Part shown: one piece after another, positions 4,132 to 25,611 of the stretch
How positions within the stretch are numbered: the stretch's first letter is position 1
Layout of the letters: each line of letters starts with the position of its first letter
Assembly: GCA_012031415.1 (NCBI GenBank)
Contig: JAAUTN010000033.1
Location: forward strand, 1 to 33,527
DNA length: 33,527 nt
Source: Leptolyngbyaceae cyanobacterium SM1_4_3
Lineage (GTDB): Bacteria > Cyanobacteriota > Cyanobacteriia > Elainellales > Elainellaceae
Reading direction: 5' to 3'
The notes under the pieces: generated by a model
Told to the model about the DNA's origin: nothing
Database searches by the model: none
The model's input: the letters and a program-made list of their open reading frames with translations, nothing else
Translations under genes and position numbers: made by a program

Positions 4132-5562
4132 ATGTCTTATTCTCAAACGCGAACTCAGACGAAATCTGGGTATAAGGCTGGGGTTCAAGATTACAAGCTG
4201 ACTTATTACACCCCAGATTACACTCCTAAAGATACGGATATTTTGGCAGCTTTTCGAGTCACGCCTCAGCCTGGTGTTCCGCCCGAAGAAGCAGCGGCGG
4301 CGGTTGCGGCTGAGTCTTCTACGGGTACCTGGACAACCGTATGGACTGACCTGTTGACCGACCTCGATCGCTACAAAGGCCGTTGCTATGACATCGAGCC
4401 AGTTCGGGGTGATGACAACCAGTTCATTGCTTACATTGCCTATCCTCTAGATCTGTTTGAGGAAGGCTCTGTCACCAATATGTTGACCTCGATTGTAGGG
4501 AACGTGTTTGGTTTCAAAGCGCTAAAAGCGCTGCGTCTAGAAGACCTGCGAATCCCCGTTGCTTACCTCAAGACTTTCCAGGGGCCTCCTCACGGCATTC
4601 AGGTCGAGCGCGACAAGATCAACAAATACGGTCGTCCTCTGCTAGGCTGCACGATCAAGCCGAAGTTAGGTCTGTCTGCTAAGAACTACGGTCGGGCAGT
4701 CTATGAGTGCCTGCGCGGTGGTCTTGACTTTACCAAAGATGACGAGAACATCAACTCTCAGCCATTCCAGCGCTGGCGCGATCGCTTCCTCTTCGTTGCC
4801 GAAGCCATCCACAAAGCTCAGGCTGAAACGGGTGAAATCAAGGGGCATTACCTCAACTGTACTGCTGCTACCTGTGAAGATATGCTAGAGCGGGCAGAGT
4901 TCGCCAAAGAACTGAAAATGCCCATCATTATGCATGACTACCTCACCGCAGGCTTTACCGCCAACACCACGCTGGCAAAGTGGTGCCGTGCGAATGGCAT
5001 TTTGCTCCACATCCACCGGGCAATGCACGCCGTAATTGACCGTCAAAAGAATCATGGAATTCACTTCCGAGTGCTTGCCAAGACCCTGCGGATGTCCGGT
5101 GGCGACCACATTCACACCGGAACCGTCGTCGGTAAGCTAGAAGGCGAACGCGGCATCACGATGGGCTTTGTGGATCTGCTGCGTGAAAACTATGTTGAGA
5201 AAGACCCTTCTCGCGGCATCTACTTCACTCAAGACTGGGCTTCCATGCCTGGTGTAATGGCAGTAGCTTCCGGTGGTATCCACGTCTGGCATATGCCCGC
5301 ACTGGTAGAAATCTTCGGGGATGACTCCGTGCTTCAGTTTGGTGGTGGCACCCTCGGACACCCCTGGGGTAATGCGCCAGGGGCAACTGCAAACCGGGTT
5401 GCTCTGGAAGCTTGCGTCCAGGCACGGAACGAAGGTCGCTCCCTGGCTCGTGAAGGTAACGATGTCATTCGTGAAGCCTGCAAGTGGTCGCCTGAATTGG
5501 CTGCGGCTTGCGAACTGTGGAAGGAAATCAAGTTTGAATTTGAGGCGGTTGATACCGTCTGA
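4132..5562 (+). CDS. rbcL: RuBisCO large subunit, form IB
   Basis: This is the catalytic subunit of ribulose-1,5-bisphosphate carboxylase/oxygenase, which fixes CO2 in the carboxysome as an L8S8 complex. At 476 residues it is full length. Visible landmarks are the N-terminal stretch ending in [17 protein letters not shown] with active-site K176 and K178, and FTKDDEN with the carbamylated lysine K202 and Mg ligands D204 and E205. [15 protein letters not shown] contains loop-6 lysine (about K335). The start ATG is fixed by AGGAAGG 7 bases upstream. It is first in the rbcL-rbcX-rbcS operon. A second open frame on the opposite strand (5137-5679) is a shadow. Confidence 0.99.
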
Positions 5563-5565
5563 TCT

Positions 5566-5707
5566 GGAAGGATGAAGGATGAGGGATAAGGATGAATTCA
5601 AGCCATTCCTGGAACTTTGTCCCTCATGCTTCTTAAGATGGATGAAAGTTAAGGATGGACACTGTTCCTCATCTTTCATCCCTCATCCTTCATCCCTCAT
5701 CCCTTCC
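5566..5707. repeat. Inverted heptamer repeats between rbcL and rbcX
   Basis: Immediately after the rbcL stop, 5566-5596 carries purine-rich 7-base units of the type GGATGAA/GGATGAG/GGATAAG. The span 5667-5707 carries the complementary pyrimidine-rich form (TTCATCC/CTCATCC units). The arms are near-perfect reverse complements about 70 bases apart, so the transcript can form a large stem-loop ending just before the rbcX ATG. The pyrimidine-rich arm replaces any ribosome binding site for rbcX. Confidence 0.75.
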
Positions 5708-5710
5708 CCG

Positions 5711-6127
5711 ATGGATCTCAAACAAGTTGCGAAGGATACTGCCAAAACGATCGTGAGCTACCTGACTTATCAGGCTGTGAGAACGGTTGTTGCTCAGCTT
5801 CGAGAGACGAATCCGCCACTTAGCATCTGGCTAAATGGGTTCTCTTCAACTGGCAAAATCCAGGATGGAGAGGTTTACCTCCAAGAACTGTTAGAAGCAA
5901 ATCAGCAGCTTGCCTTTCGCGTAATGACGGTGAGAGCACACCTGGCAGAGGAAATCTCGGATTTTTTGCCAGAAATGATTCGCACTGGCATTCAGCAGGC
6001 AAATGTGGAGCATCGTCGCCAATATCTTGAGCGAGTCACGCAACTGAGTTTATCGGCACCGCTGTCGATCGCTGAGCCGCCAGTTGACTCAGAACCGGGA
6101 TCTGACGATTCAGATGAGTCCATTTAG
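5711..6127 (+). CDS. rbcX: RuBisCO assembly chaperone RbcX
   Basis: RbcX is a helical homodimer that binds the C-terminal tail of newly folded RbcL and promotes assembly of the large-subunit octamer. The 138-residue protein starts MDLKQVAKDT. It keeps the peptide-groove residues Y17, Y20 and Q29, and ends in an acidic tail. The frame is open further upstream to 5579, but that extension only translates the heptamer repeat; homologues start at the ATG at 5711, which I use. No Shine-Dalgarno is visible, so translation may depend on coupling or on the repeat structure. Its place between rbcL and rbcS is typical. Confidence 0.96.
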   Translation: MDLKQVAKDTAKTIVSYLTYQAVRTVVAQLRETNPPLSIWLNGFSSTGKIQDGEVYLQELLEANQQLAFRVMTVRAHLAEEISDFLPEMIRTGIQQANVEHRRQYLERVTQLSLSAPLSIAEPPVDSEPGSDDSDESI

Positions 6128-6182: not shown

Positions 6183-6527
6183 ATGCAAACTCTACGCAAA
6201 GAACGCCGTTACGAAACTCTTTCCTACTTGCCTCCTTTAAGCGATCAGCAAATCGCTAAGCAGGTTCAGTACATTCTCGATCAGGGCTATTTCCCAGCGA
6301 TCGAATTCAACGAAACTTCTGAGCCAACTGACTATTACTGGACGATGTGGAAGCTGCCTTTGTTTAACGCAGGTAGCGTTCAAGAAGTGCTGCAAGAAGT
6401 CAATGAGTGCCGCAACGCTTACCGTGACTCTTATGTGCGGGTTGTCGGATTTGACAACATCAAGCAGTGTCAAGTTCTTAGCTTCATTATCCACAAGCCC
6501 GGTGGCAGCAATAGCTACCGCTACTAG
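6183..6527 (+). CDS. rbcS: RuBisCO small subunit
   Basis: The small subunit of form-I RuBisCO caps the L8 core and tunes catalysis. The 114 residues have the usual cyanobacterial plan: [19 protein letters not shown] at the N-terminus, [11 protein letters not shown] (residues about 51-61), and [17 protein letters not shown] near the C-terminus. The start ATG has only a weak purine stretch ahead of it. It is the third gene of the rbc operon, 55 bases after rbcX, and is followed by two hairpins that end the transcript. Confidence 0.98.
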
Positions 6528-9095: not shown

Positions 9096-9101
9096 CGGGG
9101 A

Positions 9102-9122
9102 GGGGATAGGGGATAGGGGATA
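9102..9122. repeat. GGGGATA heptamer x3
   Basis: GGGGATA is repeated exactly three times (9102-9108, 9109-9115, 9116-9122) in the 48-base gap between nanE and the upstream gene. Exact copies suggest a young, length-variable tract. Confidence 0.8.
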
Positions 9123-9143
9123 GGGCTGTTTTAGAGGTTATCG

Positions 9144-16081: not shown

Positions 16082-17551
16082 CTATTGAGTCTTGACATTA
16101 TAAGATTTAGTCGCTAACGCAGCCAGTTGTGCCTGTGCCTTGTGCAGTGCTTCAAACCACTCCAGTTCTGGGTTGCTATCTGCTACGATGCCTGCTCCGA
16201 CTTGCCCCCAGATCACGTTCTTGCGATCGCTTGCGCTTTTAGTTGAGACTGACGACAGTGAGGCGGGGGCAGAGAGTAGCGTGCGAATTAAAATGTTTAA
16301 GTCCAGGTTTCCGCGCCAGTCTAAATAGCCGCAGGAACCGTAGAACAGGCTGCGGCGAACGGGTTCTAGCTCTTCAATGATCTCCATGCAGCGAACTTTA
16401 GGACAGCCCGTAATGGTGCCACCTGGAAACAAGGACTGAATCAGGGCGATCGCATCACAATCTGAGCGCAATCTGCCCCTGACATTACTAACCAAGTGCA
16501 TCACGTGGCTGTAACGTTCGATCGTCAGCAGTTCATCGACTGTCACCGACCCCCATTCACAAACTCGCCCCAGGTCGTTGCGCTCCAGGTCAACTAGCAT
16601 GATGTGTTCGGCATTTTCTTTGGCGTTGTTGAGCAGGTCTTGAGCCTGCTGGCGATCGCCCTCTAAAGTGCTTCCCCGCGAGCGCGTTCCGGCGATGGGT
16701 CGGGTCTGTGCCTCGCGTCCCCGCAATTCTACTAACCGCTCTGGAGAACAGCTAATCACGGCTCCCCAGGGAGTCTGCCAATAGCTGGCAAAGGGGGAAG
16801 GGTTAATCTGCTGGAGCGATCGATAGATTGACCAGTTATCTGCCAGGGTATGTGCCTCAAACCGTAGGGAAAGGTTTGCCTGGAAGATGTCTCCGGCTTG
16901 AATATATTTCTTAGCCCGAAGGATGGCAGCTTCGTAGTCAGGTTGAGAAGTGTGGAAGTGGGGCGCAGGGGGAGTGGGGCAGGCGACAGGGAGCAGGGAG
17001 CAGGGAGGAGGATTTTCCAGGTGGGATTGGAGGGTGTCGAGGTGGGCTGGGTGAGTGACGGCTAGCCAGAGAGTTTGGGCGTAGTGGTCGAGAATGGCAA
17101 ACTGGTCTGGCTCATACCAGTAGGCAACGGGGAAAGGGAGCGGGTCAGGGTTGAGGCAGGGAAGCTGTTCAATTTCCCACGCCAGGTCGTAGCCCAGCCA
17201 CCCCAACCAGCCTCCGGTGAAGGGGAGATCAGGATCGGGAATCTCCAGGGCTGCTGAATACTGAAGGAATTGGCGCAACTGGGGCAAAATTTTGCCGACT
17301 GCGGGTGTCCAGATTTGCGGCTTGCCCTGTCGGATGCGGGGCGCTCCGGCACAGAGGGAATATCGCGCTTGCAGGGAGGAAGTCACCGGGGTAGGGAGGG
17401 CGGAGGGGCTTTCTAGCAGGGTGGCGATCGCCTCCACTCCAGTTTCAGGTGCAGCTACCGGACGGTGAAACAGCGCCTCAAATACGTCTGAGCCAGTGCG
17501 CTGGTTAAGGGGAAGCGATCGCCAGTGCCAGGGTTGAATCGATTGCAGCAT
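16082..17551 (-). CDS. pabB: Chorismate-utilising synthase component I (PabB-like)
   Basis: This chorismate-binding enzyme makes aminodeoxychorismate for folate (PabB) or anthranilate (TrpE type). The C-terminal catalytic domain is complete: FQANLSLRFEA, RPIAGTRSRG, NAKENAEHIMLVDLERNDLG, GGTITGCPKVRCMEIIEELEP and the final GAGIVADSNPELEW. FQANLS and the overall layout favour PabB. However, the motif reads PIAGT rather than the PIKGT common in PabB, and an LLES segment near the N-terminus recalls TrpE. The frame opens at 17602, but that overlaps ecfT by 34 bases. I prefer the Met at 17551 (MLQSIQPWHW), giving 489 residues. A heptamer repeat interrupts the linker at 16989-17009. Confidence 0.87.
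   Translation of the reverse strand: MLQSIQPWHWRSLPLNQRTGSDVFEALFHRPVAAPETGVEAIATLLESPSALPTPVTSSLQARYSLCAGAPRIRQGKPQIWTPAVGKILPQLRQFLQYSAALEIPDPDLPFTGGWLGWLGYDLAWEIEQLPCLNPDPLPFPVAYWYEPDQFAILDHYAQTLWLAVTHPAHLDTLQSHLENPPPCSLLPVACPTPPAPHFHTSQPDYEAAILRAKKYIQAGDIFQANLSLRFEAHTLADNWSIYRSLQQINPSPFASYWQTPWGAVISCSPERLVELRGREAQTRPIAGTRSRGSTLEGDRQQAQDLLNNAKENAEHIMLVDLERNDLGRVCEWGSVTVDELLTIERYSHVMHLVSNVRGRLRSDCDAIALIQSLFPGGTITGCPKVRCMEIIEELEPVRRSLFYGSCGYLDWRGNLDLNILIRTLLSAPASLSSVSTKSASDRKNVIWGQVGAGIVADSNPELEWFEALHKAQAQLAALATKSYNVKTQ
16989..17009. repeat. Heptamer tandem repeat inside pabB
   Basis: GGGAGCA is repeated twice (16989-16995, 16996-17002) and followed by GGGAGGA (17003-17009). The tract lies within the coding sequence and encodes part of the Pro/Leu linker PPPCSLLPVA between the N-terminal and chorismate-binding halves. 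Three units total 21 bases, so the reading frame is kept. Confidence 0.7.
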
Positions 17552-17568
17552 AGTTGCAGCATTGTCTC

Positions 17569-18501
17569 TCACAAATAGCCCCAAAAGATCCGGGCGCTCC
17601 AAAATGCACCTGCGCCCAGCAGCACGGCCCAGTCTAACAGCCGCAGCCGAAACTGATACCAGCGCACTTGATGCTGGTTAGGACTGGTAAACCCTCTCAC
17701 CTGCATGGCGCTAGCAATTTGCTCTGCCCGCAGCAGCAGGTTGTCCAGCAGCCGCTCAGAAATCATCAGCCAAACCTGGGATGTGCCACGAAAACCCAGC
17801 TTTTTCCAGTTGATGGCCCTGGTCCGAACCGATCGCACCAAGTTCTGAATTTCCTCCAGCACTAAGGGAATAAACCGCAGCGATAGCGTCAACGTCAGCA
17901 CAATTTCGGTGACGGGCACATTAAACCGACGCAGCGGCTGCATTAGATTGTCCAGCCCAGCGGTGATTTCTTCGGGAGCAGTGGTCAATAGATACAGATT
18001 CGTACTGTAGATCAGCACAAACATTAGCGTCCCAGCCCGAACCGCTAACTCTAGCGATCGCCGCGTTACGGTAATTCGAGACTGTTGAATCAGCACATAG
18101 CGATAGCCAGTCGGCTGAGGCAATTCGCTAGCTGCCACCTGTACGGGTGCATCCGTCGGTTGCACTGCTGTTTCTACAAGAGCAAGTTCATTGTCAGGCA
18201 ATCGGGTCTGATGAGTCACATCTAGTCCATCTGGAGCTAGCATCGTGACCAAAAACAGCAGCAAGCTAAAAATAATTACCAGCCCCATCTGCTGCCGCCA
18301 AACCCGAAACGGAATTCGAGTCGCTAGCGTCAGCAACAGCAGCCAGCCCACGAGTGAAAGCCGCCAAATTGGCCCCGCCGAAATCGGTGAGAGCAAAAAG
18401 CCCAACAGCCACACGAGCTTAATTCTAGGGTCGATCTGGTGAAGCCAGGTGACGGGTTGTTCAAGGTAAAGCCCAATTGGGAGCGATCGCAGCAGATCCA
18501 T
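17569..18501 (-). CDS. ecfT: Energy-coupling factor transporter T component (CbiQ/EcfT)
   Basis: EcfT is the membrane scaffold of energy-coupling-factor importers for vitamins or metal ions. It links two ATPases to a substrate-binding subunit. The 310-residue protein begins with the family signature LDPR-like HQIDPRIKLVWLLGF (about 21-35). It has several membrane helices and two cytoplasmic coupling helices (SVRTRAINWKKLGF and IASAMQVRGF). A soluble insert of about 50 residues (about 88-145) separates two helices. Its ATG directly abuts the der stop codon, a pairing common in cyanobacteria. No ATPase or S component is nearby, so the cargo is unknown. Confidence 0.9.
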   Translation of the reverse strand: MDLLRSLPIGLYLEQPVTWLHQIDPRIKLVWLLGFLLSPISAGPIWRLSLVGWLLLLTLATRIPFRVWRQQMGLVIIFSLLLFLVTMLAPDGLDVTHQTRLPDNELALVETAVQPTDAPVQVAASELPQPTGYRYVLIQQSRITVTRRSLELAVRAGTLMFVLIYSTNLYLLTTAPEEITAGLDNLMQPLRRFNVPVTEIVLTLTLSLRFIPLVLEEIQNLVRSVRTRAINWKKLGFRGTSQVWLMISERLLDNLLLRAEQIASAMQVRGFTSPNQHQVRWYQFRLRLLDWAVLLGAGAFWSARIFWGYL

Positions 18502-19872: not shown

Positions 19873-20389
19873 ATAAAACCCGCTAGCCGTCTGGCTGTGA
19901 ATCCCTCAATATTCCATTCTAGTGCAGCTTCAACAAGCCCGTTCCGTCAGGCATTTGCAAATATTCCGCAACGCCTCAAAATCTTTACGAAAGTTGTTGA
20001 CACAGCCCTACTACTATAGAAACGCAGAGGCAAAAAGAGATGTAGAAATTGGTTTTCCTAACTTTCCCCCCTGTGGCATTTGAGAGTTTGGCCGCTATTT
20101 GCTACGGTTTATTACAGATGCTTACGTATTCTTTATATTTTCTCCCCTCTTTAGGTAGATGACGAGCAGCTAATAGGTCTCTGTCAGGATTGCACCCTAG
20201 ACTGATGTGGAGAATAGATAGATTTAGTTTTATCAGCAGTAGTGGCAGGTTGGAAAACCTTCTTACTTCTGGAAAGGTAAGCAGCCATCTGGAAAGGTAA
20301 GCAGCTAGGTCAAATTTCAAAAGATTAATCTTCTATTTTTGAAATGCCTTTAGACTTTGTTCAACAACTTGATTTAGGTAGGTAATTTC
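19873..20389. other. Gene-free divergent region between der and glgB
   Basis: This 517-base gap must hold the divergent promoters for der and glgB. A minus-strand frame at 20102-20320 has no family features and lacks a good start, so I leave it out. The only structure I can support is the 20-base-period direct repeat at 20268-20304. The glgB start is preceded by TTAGGTAGGTAA. Confidence 0.45.
20268..20304 (+). repeat. Direct repeat upstream of glgB
   Basis: TCTGGAAAGGTAAGCAG occurs exactly at 20268-20284 and again at 20288-20304. This is a 17-base repeat with a 20-base period, about 90 bases before the glgB start. The spacing is about two helical turns, so it could be a paired protein-binding site; that is inference. 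Confidence 0.6.
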
Positions 20390-22681
20390 ATGTCAATGAC
20401 TGTCGCTCCAGAGCAGATCGAACGGATTGTTTGGAACCAGCACCAAGACCCGTTTGAAGTGTTAGGCCCCCACCAAATTCAGGACAACGGCAAAGCTGTT
20501 TGGGTGGTACGGGCTTATCTGCCTGATGCCAGCGCAGCATGGGTGGTATTGCCAGAAGAGCGGGCTGAGTACCCAATGCAGCCCGTGCATCATGCCCACT
20601 TTTTTGAATGTACCCTGGAACGACCTGATCTTGCCAATTACCAGCTTCGGGTCAAGGAAGGAGAGCATGAGCGAGTTATCTACGATCCTTATGCATTTCG
20701 ATCGCCCCGTCTAACTGACTTTGACATTCATCTGTTTGCAGAGGGCAACCACCACCGAATCTACGAAAAGTTGGGCGCACACCCGACTGAAATTGAAGGC
20801 GTTGAGGGAGTCTACTTTGCAGTCTGGGCACCAAATGCGCGTAACGTTTCGGCTTTAGGCGATTTTAACGATTGGGATGGTCGTAAGCATCAGATGCGAC
20901 GCGGTTCGAGTGGCATCTGGGAACTGTTTGTACCTGGGCTGAAGGTTGGCGACTGCTATAAGTACGAAATTAAAAACCCGGCGGGTCACATTTACGAGAA
21001 GTCTGACCCCTACGGCTTTCAGCAGGAGGTACGACCCAAAACCGCATCTATCGTGGCGGATCTGGATCGATATGAATGGGGCGATCGCAACTGGATGGAA
21101 CAGCGCCGCCACAGCGACCCCTTGACCCAGCCAATCTCAGTTTACGAAGTCCACCTGGGTTCCTGGCTGCACGCCTCAGCCGCTGAACCCGCTAAATCCA
21201 TCACAGGCGAAGATGAGCCTGTCGTGATTGTCGCAGAACTCAAGCCTGGAGCAAGGTTCCTCACCTACCGAGAGCTAGCCGAGCGGCTGATTCCTTATGT
21301 CAAGGAAACGGGCTTTACCCACATCGAGCTACTGCCCATTGCCGAACATCCGTTTGATGGCTCCTGGGGCTATCAGGTGACGGGCTACTACGCCTGCACC
21401 TCTCGCTATGGAAGCCCTGAAGACCTGATGTATTTCATCGATCAGTGTCACCAGAACGGCATTGGCGTAATTGTTGACTGGGTGCCTGGACACTTTCCCA
21501 AAGACGGACACGGGCTTGCTAGCTTCGACGGAACCTACCTTTATGAACACGCCGATCCTCGTAAAGGTGAACACAAGGAATGGGGAACGCTGGTGTTCAA
21601 CTATTCCCGTCACGAGGTACGCAACTTCCTGGTTGCCAATGCTCTATTCTGGTTTGACAAATACCACATCGATGGCATTCGAGTAGACGCAGTTGCCTCC
21701 ATGCTCTACCTTGACTACTGCCGCGAACCCGGTGAGTGGCTCCCCAACCAGTACGGCGGACGGGAAAACATTGAAGCGGCTGACTTCCTCCGTCAGACTA
21801 ACCATACCTTGTTTAGCTATTTCCCTGGAGCGCTGTCAATTGCAGAGGAATCCACTACCTGGCCAATGGTTTCCTGGCCTACCTACGTTGGCGGTTTGGG
21901 CTTTAACCTGAAGTGGAATATGGGCTGGATGCACGATATGCTCGACTACTTCAGCATGGACCCCTGGTTCCGCCAGTTCCACCAAAACAACGTTACTTTC
22001 AGCATCATGTATGCGTTCAGCGAAAACTTTATGCTGGCGCTCTCCCATGATGAGGTAGTGCATGGCAAGAGCAACATGATTGGTAAGGTGCCAGGTGACG
22101 AGTGGCAAAAGTTTGCTAACTTGCGCTGTCTCTATGCCTATATGTTCACCCATCCGGGTAAGAAGACTCTGTTTATGAGCATGGAGTTTGGTCAGTGGAG
22201 CGAGTGGAATGTCTGGGGCGATTTGGAATGGCATTTGCTCCAGTATGAGCCGCACCAAAAGCTGAAGCATTTTGTCGGCAAACTAAACCAGCTTTATCGA
22301 GATGAGCCTGCTCTATATACACACGACTTTAGCTATGACGGCTTTGAGTGGATTGACTGTAGCGACAATCGCCATAGTGTCGTTTCCTTCATCCGTAAGG
22401 CTAAGGACTCTGAGGATTTTGTGATTACGGTCTGCAATTTCACCCCTCAACCCCATTCTCACTATCGGGTTGGTGTGCCCCAGCTAGGATTCTACACAGA
22501 GCTACTGAACAGCGATGCGCGGGAATATGGCGGCAGCAATATGGGCAACCTGGGCGGCAAGTGGGCAGAGGAGTGGTCTTACCACAATCGTCCCTACTCG
22601 ATTGATCTTTGCTTGCCACCGCTGGGAGTGCTGGTGTTGAAGTTGGATAAGGCGAAGACTGAGGCGGTAAGGGAAGGATGA
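20390..22681 (+). CDS. glgB: 1,4-alpha-glucan branching enzyme
   Basis: GlgB cuts alpha-1,4 glucan chains and rejoins them as alpha-1,6 branches, shaping cyanobacterial glycogen. At 763 residues it is full length. It has an N-terminal domain with FEVLGPH (22-28), a CBM48 domain with [20 protein letters not shown] (140-159), and the GH13 barrel. The barrel carries nucleophile D433 ([10 protein letters not shown]), acid/base E486 (SIAEES) and D554 ([10 protein letters not shown]). A C-terminal all-beta domain ends LGVLVLKLD. Start is the first ATG at 20390; a second Met two codons on is possible. It is monocistronic, with heptamer repeats and a strong terminator downstream. Confidence 0.98.
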
Positions 22682-22748
22682 GGGGTGAGGGATAAGGTTT
22701 AATCTGTAGCGGTTTACTCAGAACTCGGAACTCAGAACCTAGAACTGG
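22674..22748. repeat. Two heptamer tracts after glgB
   Basis: The end of glgB and the next bases (22674-22700) carry purine heptamers of the GGATGAG/GGATAAG type. A second tract follows: GAACTCG (22721-22727), GAACTCA (22728-22734), GAACCTA (22735-22741), GAACTGG (22742-22748). These are short tandem repeats with a 7-base period, characteristic of cyanobacterial intergenic DNA. Confidence 0.7.
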
Positions 22749-24905: not shown

Positions 24906-25335
24906 CTAATTAGAGTTGGAAATTGGAACTGTAGGAGAACGTAAAAAAACGATCGCCAGGTAAATGACCTTCATCGCTAATTCGTCAGTGGGGAAGGAAC
25001 GATGATTTCTTAAGACCTTGCGAAGAGTCATATTCATCGATTCAATCGCATTAGTTGTGTAGATAGCCTTACGGATGTCAGATGGAAAAGCAAAGAAGGA
25101 AATAATCCGATTCCAGTGGTTTATCCAGGATTTACTGGGGGTGGGGTATTGCTTATCCCAACGCTCGGCGAAGTCAACATGGCATCCAGGCTGCGATTCT
25201 GCCAAACTTTACGCTCTTGCTCCACCGCTTCGGTGACGTTGGAAATTAGGCTGTGGGACATCTCCACCCCATGCAATTCCTGCAACTACCCATCAGATCT
25301 TCAGGATTGCGATATTCTTTGAGCGGTTCGTCCAT
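24906..25335 (-). pseudogene. Decayed IS256-family (mutator type) transposase
   Basis: Three pieces of one transposase lie in order on the minus strand. The N-terminal MDEPLKEYRNPEDLMG starts at 25335. A middle segment VTEAVEQERKVWQNRSLDAM lies around 25190-25250 in another frame. The C-terminal FAERWDKQYPTPSKSWINHW and FPSDIRKAIYTTNAIESMNM, then TLRKVLRNHRSFPTDELAMK, runs to 24906. In an intact IS256 transposase about 300 further residues, including most of the DDE core, lie between these. The element is therefore internally deleted and frameshifted and cannot be active. I could not identify terminal inverted repeats. Confidence 0.85.
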
Positions 25336-25381: not shown

Positions 25382-25611
25382 GCATCAGCAATGAGATGAC
25401 CTGCATTAACAGATGCAGCCGTTGCATTAACAATGTGATTCATCGCATTAGCAATGTCAGCCGTTACATTAACAATGTCAGCTATCACATTGGCAATGTT
25501 GCCTGTCACATTAACAATGTGACTCGTCGCATTAGCAATGTAACGAGTCACATTGCGATGTGCAGCCATCACATTACGATTGCAAGCCCTACATTAGAAA
25601 TGCTCGATGAT
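25382..25611. repeat. 21-bp tandem array of palindromic units
   Basis: About eleven units stand head to tail, the central eight at an exact 21-base period starting at 25403, 25424, 25445, 25466, 25487, 25508, 25529 and 25550. Degenerate units flank them at 25382, 25571 and 25591. The core of a typical unit is a palindrome, RCATTARCAATGT (CATT-NNC-AATG), followed by 8 variable bases such as CAGCCGTT or GACTCGTC. Because 21 is a multiple of three, both strands stay open and read as heptapeptides (HIVNVTG type, minus; HINNVTR type, plus). There is no start or binding site to support translation. It lies just upstream of the IS256 relic. Confidence 0.9.

Follow-up and report, generated by a model that had tools for sequence, protein, structure and literature searches.

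Genes, spacer and predicted hairpin

The window analysed here, i.e. the whole 33,527-nt stretch of the Leptolyngbyaceae cyanobacterium SM1_4_3 genome, carries on its forward strand the genes of a Rubisco operon: rbcL (4132-5562), an ORF for the large subunit of 476 aa with Pfam matches to RuBisCO_large (PF00016, E 1.6e-139) and to PF02788; rbcX (5711-6127), for the Rubisco assembly chaperone of 138 aa (RbcX, PF02341, E 2.4e-53); and rbcS (6183-6527), for the small subunit of 114 aa (RuBisCO_small, PF00101, E 3.3e-43). An upstream in-frame ATG at 5579, which would extend the rbcX ORF, was not adopted as the start of the gene because the product beginning at 5711 matches the Pfam RbcX model from its first residue onwards. 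The spacer of 148 nt between rbcL and rbcX (5563-5710), read on the same strand, contains the hairpin that is the subject of this report. Its 5' arm (5567-5595) consists of purine-rich GGATGAR heptamers, with GAAGGATGAAGGATGAGGGATAAGGATGA at the spacer start; the interior (5596-5668) folds as a weaker inner stem-loop and resembles, by eye, the same stretch in the same-genus genome G002; the 3' arm (5666-5704), with TCCTCATCTTTCATCCCTCATCCTTCATCCCTCATCC at the spacer end, consists of YTCATCC heptamers, the complement of the 5' arm; and a short C-rich tail (5705-5710), holding neither an SD-like motif nor a U-run nor a GCTGG(G/T)GTC leader, precedes rbcX.

A sequence-only reading of this DNA had proposed that inverted heptamer repeats lie between rbcL and rbcX and that they fold the intercistronic RNA into a long stem, and both proposals are borne out as far as prediction reaches. 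The stretches 5567-5592 and 5666-5691 are 85% complementary without a gap, and complementarity amounts to 95% in the register 5567-5587/5678-5698 and to 100% in 5577-5587/5692-5702; since the 3' arm exceeds the need of a 26-pair stem, these other registers are able to pair. TRF finds a period of 7 at 5567-5596 and 5667-5704 and a period of 14 at 5667-5702, and we regard both the existence of the inverted repeat and its composition from a dispersed repeat as nearly certain. In the minimum-energy fold, 5570-5595 is paired with 5669-5695 through 26 pairs with one bulged base (5677), and the identical 26 pairs are predicted in all three stretches that were folded (5550-5730, 5501-5790 and 5450-5850), while the structure predicted outside them varies with the stretch. 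The 181 nt of 5550-5730 fold at -68.5 kcal/mol against -48.8 ± 4.2 for shuffled sequences (z -4.72, with 0 of 200 shuffles as low), and the spacer alone reaches -61.0 kcal/mol (0 of 500 as low); stem length by itself is less remarkable, 28 pairs being reached by 11 of 500 shuffles. An Rfam scan returned 12 matches, all under the gathering threshold, of which the best (28.2 of 91 bits) and nine others are to microRNA models; we attribute them to low complexity.

The same reading had the stem end at the rbcX start, and this holds in part, in that the start is paired in some of the folded stretches, with a partner that changes from one to the next: in the fold of 5550-5730, the partner of 5710-5717 is 5551-5559, at the final codons of rbcL; in that of 5501-5790, 5711-5714 pairs with 5515-5518; and in that of 5450-5850, the AUG has two of its three bases (5711 and 5712) unpaired. 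Because the partner depends on the stretch folded, we make no claim on the pairing of the rbcX start, and its pairing with the end of rbcL was dropped as a feature. That no ribosome binding site is visible before rbcX agrees with our finding of no SD-like 4-mer there; rbcS likewise has none upstream, and rbcL has AGGA. Such an absence is usual, since an SD-like motif precedes rbcX in only 20 of the 118 distinct spacers that we collected and is missing from the other 98.

Recurrence of the fold and dispersal of the heptamer

Of 60 related genomes, 56 yielded RbcX, and rbcL adjoins it in 52 of these, in which, at 40 shuffles for each z-score as in all our comparative sets, z falls below -2 in 43 of the 51 testable rbcL-rbcX spacers and in 38 of the 52 windows that follow the rbcL stop. 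The letters of the hairpin do not recur in the same manner. Within the genus, the comparison gave z -5.7 for SM1_4_3, -5.2 for G002 and -4.3 for G001, and this last genome, which shares 99% of RbcL and 88% of RbcX with SM1_4_3, has at rbcL-rbcX a hairpin of TTTTGAG-type heptamers without visible similarity to the GGATGAR hairpin; other genera, as judged by eye, have heptamers of the GGATTTT, TTAAGAG or AAAAGTA type or plain palindromes. Shape rather than sequence thus seems to be kept, given that most of the relatives examined carry a hairpin of quite different letters at the same site. The sequence-only reading had proposed to compare arm length among related strains; relatives were indeed compared, and since even the hairpin of the same-genus G001 is unrelated in letters while standing in the same place, arm length turns out to be the wrong quantity to compare.

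Beyond these genomes, the 118 distinct spacers, reduced to 116 by a limit of 40-300 nt, fall into 61 BLAST clusters, which are a rough guard only against shared ancestry, many of the spacers coming from related taxa; the median z lies below -2 in 46 of the 61 (binomial against 0.30, p 3e-13). Two Thermosynechococcus loci and Halothece are among the 15 clusters that do not fall below -2, and no significant fold was obtained for G046 and G065, in which rbcX does not adjoin rbcL. Thirteen further rbcL-rbcX loci, picked mostly for weak RbcX scores, gave passing values in 6 windows and 8 spacers, and 11 non-cyanobacterial loci in 3 windows and 4 of 9 spacers. Left out were L087 and L088 (the same loci as L033 and L032), L074, L083, L085 and L086 (no adjacent rbcL), L150 (no downstream rbcX) and L140 (a spacer of 29 nt, too short for a spacer fold). 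By eye, the Nostoc-type spacers of L108, L115, L124 and L125 show extra inserts within a hairpin arm, those of L115 and L124 being palindromes around GACGCGAT...ATCGCGTC.

For controls we relied on a named cyanobacterial set of 69 loci, 68 of them with rbcX downstream and 60 usable for rbcL windows; 7 of the 68, being under 8 kb, and 1 more were left out of the control-gene comparison, in which genes were called as longest ORFs and those lacking a neighbour or a full window within the locus were not used. Whereas the rbcL windows have z below -2 in 46 of 60 cases (median -3.78), the same holds for 27% of the 715 other genes in these loci (median -0.73) and for 36 of 105 co-directional pairs with a gap of 80-200 nt (rbcL windows against these, p 1e-7); where the next gene points the other way (gap 60-400), 39% of 128 windows pass. 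Within the operon itself, the counts with z below -2 are 55 of 67 for the rbcL-rbcX spacer, 10 of 66 for the window past rbcX, 55 of 64 for that past rbcS and 2 of 68 for the last 140 nt of rbcL. The main stem starts at a median of 9 nt past the rbcL stop and ends at a median of 18 nt before the rbcX ATG (67 spacers), and rbcL has the top rank of its locus in only 18 of 58 cases, with 5.2 expected. In the last 24 nt before rbcX, GCTGG(G/T)GTC or a close variant, often with AAGC after it, stands in 35 of the 118 distinct spacers, the named set contributing 32; this leader is present in G001, G003 and G041 and missing in SM1_4_3 and G002, and may have been lost in the lineage that carries the GGATGAR hairpin.

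Two genes, groES and psaA, served as controls for good expression. Windows after groES (5 of 30 loci unparsed) are at background, with z below -2 in 6 of 25, and windows after psaA (28 of the 30 loci L260-L289 parsed) are above it, with 19 of 28. The psaA-psaB spacers measure 91-221 nt in 16 genomes, all 16 of which have z below -2, and 10-25 nt in the other 12. As these spacers behave alike, the fold is not unique to Rubisco, and it may be a trait of photosynthesis operons with strong expression. At least five psaA-psaB spacers of 91-221 nt end in TTAGGACTT directly before psaB.

Loci in which rbcS directly follows rbcL fold as well: z lies below -2 in 13 of 15 distinct cyanobacterial windows (19 before identical sequences were merged), 12 of the 15 coming from a single family, f2, and one of the other 3 passing at a borderline value (-2.2 and -1.9 in two runs). 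This family, which we take for alpha-cyanobacteria, has no RbcX match among the matches listed. Its 13 rbcL loci L216-L228 show, by eye, short hairpins between rbcL and rbcS, a few of them with T-runs; some of these could be partial terminators, unlike the long stems of the SM1_4_3 relatives.

The two strands of the rbcL-rbcX spacer are not equivalent. In 46 of the 61 clusters the fold is more stable in the mRNA sense than on the complementary strand (p 5e-6), the 5' arm is the purine-richer one in 48 of 61, and the share of GU pairs in the main stem is 11.3% for sense folds against 6.4% for antisense folds. Control hairpins, which were compared for energy only, show a weaker bias (sense lower in 111 of 195; rbcL against controls, p 0.012). 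This strand bias points to selection on the transcript, thereby disfavouring a role as a DNA-only cruciform.

The material of the SM1_4_3 arms is abundant in its genome. The 13-mer TCATCCYTCATCC has 221+237 matches (458) in the 7.79-Mb draft, against 4+2 (6) for the reversed control, and it occurs 172+214 times in G002 and 22+24 times in G001. At only 4 of 43 distinct own-genome sites, sampled from among the matches listed, does the opposite orientation stand within 130 nt, so that the usual copy is a one-sided tandem array; 6 of the 43, again among the matches listed, lie inside an ORF of at least 150 aa (longest-ORF gene calls). The family thus shows the tandem 7-bp unit of an STRR, a short tandemly repeated repetitive sequence of cyanobacteria (TRF periods 7 and 14), together with many dispersed copies, mostly extragenic (458 against 6, with 6 of 43 in ORFs), while a REPIN-like mobile REP doublet, whose usual dispersed unit is two inverted REPs, was rejected on account of the prevailing one-sided copies. 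Both arms are present, by comparison, in 6 of the 8 rbcL-rbcX spacers in which the GGATGAR-type heptamer forms a strict dimer (5 of 7 without one duplicate, Fisher p 0.001 against the own-genome sites), an excess that is only indicative, for it sets the sites of a single genome against spacers of several genomes, two of which (SM1_4_3 and G002) share the element. Abundant families do not generally supply the letters, given that by exact 16-mers the heptamers of the G001 and G003 spacers are scarce in the respective genomes (6 and 1 places in total).

Readings of the hairpin

These comparisons, drawn from sequence, favour a selected RNA structure over an accident. The reading that we prefer, and to which we would give a little under an even chance, is that the stem serves as a selected 3' barrier on the rbcL mRNA and is renewed from whatever repeats are available, rather than being an attenuator specific to rbcX. 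The rbcL-rbcX-rbcS message, presumably cotranscribed, would be read through, the lack of a U-run meaning that the stem is not a classical intrinsic terminator; once the message is cut or decays from its 3' side, 26 pairs standing a few bases past the rbcL stop would halt 3'-5' exonucleases, and the rbcL part would outlast the downstream part, with differing mRNA levels as the expected outcome. A secondary effect on RbcX may follow through poorer translation of rbcX, as the stem separates the two cistrons. The letters of the stem would meanwhile turn over, local repeat arrays growing, shrinking or being replaced and chiefly the paired versions being retained. By its predicted properties, i.e. 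a stable stem past the upstream cistron, no U-run and recurrence among genomes, the element matches what is expected of an intercistronic mRNA-stabilising stem-loop. Of the two roles offered by the sequence-only reading, that of protecting the rbcL message agrees somewhat better with the data, since the fold also follows rbcL where rbcS comes next; attenuation of rbcX is possible and not specifically supported.

It is rather unlikely, in our judgement, that the hairpins are neutral, i.e. that dispersed heptamers gather in a tolerant spacer and palindromes arise by DNA-level processes without any function. The dispersal of the heptamer through the genome, a lag-7 periodicity only slightly lower in control windows (0.337) than in rbcL spacers (0.355) and the inserts seen by eye to interrupt some Nostoc arms are all in line with such an origin; however, it does not readily account for the enrichment of folds over control genes of the same loci, for their rarity after rbcX, for the presence of both arms at rbcL and seldom at other sites, or for the bias towards the sense strand. 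We also consider it unlikely that the stem acts chiefly by lowering RbcX relative to RbcL, be it by blocking translational coupling or by hiding the rbcX start. The rbcX AUG is paired in two of the three folded stretches and has no SD, and the main stem ends close to the rbcX ATG across the 67 spacers; yet that pairing is unstable to the stretch folded, an SD is usually absent before rbcX and absent before rbcS of the same operon too, and the fold is present also where rbcS comes next, albeit mostly in one family. The folds of these latter loci lean towards a function at the 3' end of rbcL without settling the matter.

Quite improbable, although a strong stem stands straight after the stop codon and the window after rbcS folds too, is a partial transcription terminator or pause site that reduces rbcX-rbcS transcription. 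A U-run follows the main stem in 0 of 67 spacers, a result to be read with the caveat that the test is not sensitive, as it finds a U-run after rbcS in only 10 of 64; at the SM1_4_3 locus no U-run stands directly past the stem, CTTCCCCG being what follows 5702. A terminator scan of the spacer found none, and being limited to loops of 3-8 nt it could not have seen the 26-pair stem.

If the preferred reading of a 3' barrier is widened to the whole sample, a tentative proposal takes shape, possible though still short of an even chance: the rbcL 3'-end hairpin of many beta-cyanobacteria and of the sampled alpha-cyanobacterial family would be maintained by selection that acts solely on the RNA fold, the letters being repeatedly replaced, often from heptamer arrays, so that congeners share structure and not sequence. 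In that case dispersed STRR repeats would be useful as raw material for operon-internal 3' barriers, with psaA-psaB as a second case. A site that keeps its pairing while exchanging its sequence would make the use of heptamer repeats testable, and this in the operon of a central carbon-fixing enzyme.

Intercistronic hairpins that give the upstream gene a longer-lived message are known from the proteobacterial puf and malE-malF transcripts, where experiments showed the function, whereas the rbcL-rbcX stem is known from its predicted fold. The closest likeness in terms of turnover is the P6b stem of the Nostoc trnL intron, which, according to passages in PMC4476775, consists of one of two classes of seven-nucleotide repeats that are unrelated and take each other's place from strain to strain among relatives, with a similar secondary structure throughout. 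P6b, however, lies inside a group I intron and the rbcL-rbcX stem between cistrons, in a wider range of cyanobacteria and in some of them without heptamers. Hairpins of 7-bp STRRs between genes are likewise described near cyanobacterial genes such as hupS-hupL and upstream of hoxW (in parts of PMC2670836) and in the hyp operon (in parts of PMC2408588), that is, in operons other than rbcL-rbcX-rbcS; these passages suggest transcript stability or translational coupling and call the function of the hairpins unknown, as PMC2670836 does for cyanobacterial heptamer repeats in general.

In chloroplasts, 3' inverted repeats impede PNPase and thus offer a 3' stem-loop that acts as an exonuclease barrier, with the rbcL 3' UTR listed as 28RNP-bound in a section of PMC5897788. 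That system is described for chloroplasts, and we liken the two by analogy; if the proposal is true, the chloroplast rbcL 3' inverted repeat could continue the same habit. Plastid rbcL is not known to have an rbcX gene behind it. A literature search, with most subscription journals outside its reach, found no statement of a conserved rbcL-rbcX hairpin. Turnover of the spacer would give a reason for what users of the rbcLX phylogenetic marker report in passages of two papers, namely that the spacer is omitted from wide alignments (PMC12559999) and that it contains inserts and a recombination breakpoint (PMC4476775).

Other repeats in the window

The heptamer family of the hairpin recurs in degenerate form (AAGGGAAGGATGAGGGGTGAGGGATAAGG) at 22669-22697, across the end of the ORF 20390-22681, and a 20-bp direct repeat of 1.9 copies (20268-20305) stands upstream of this ORF. 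Heptamer arrays of other composition were found at 9101-9125 (AGGGGAT, 3.6 copies), between two ORFs, and at 16987-17011 (CAGGGAG, 3.6 copies), within the ORF 16082-17602. Tandem units of 21/42 nt with CATTAACAATGT / CATTAGCAATGT half-palindromes occupy 25402-25576, near a fragment (24906-25205) that by eye looks like part of a transposase.
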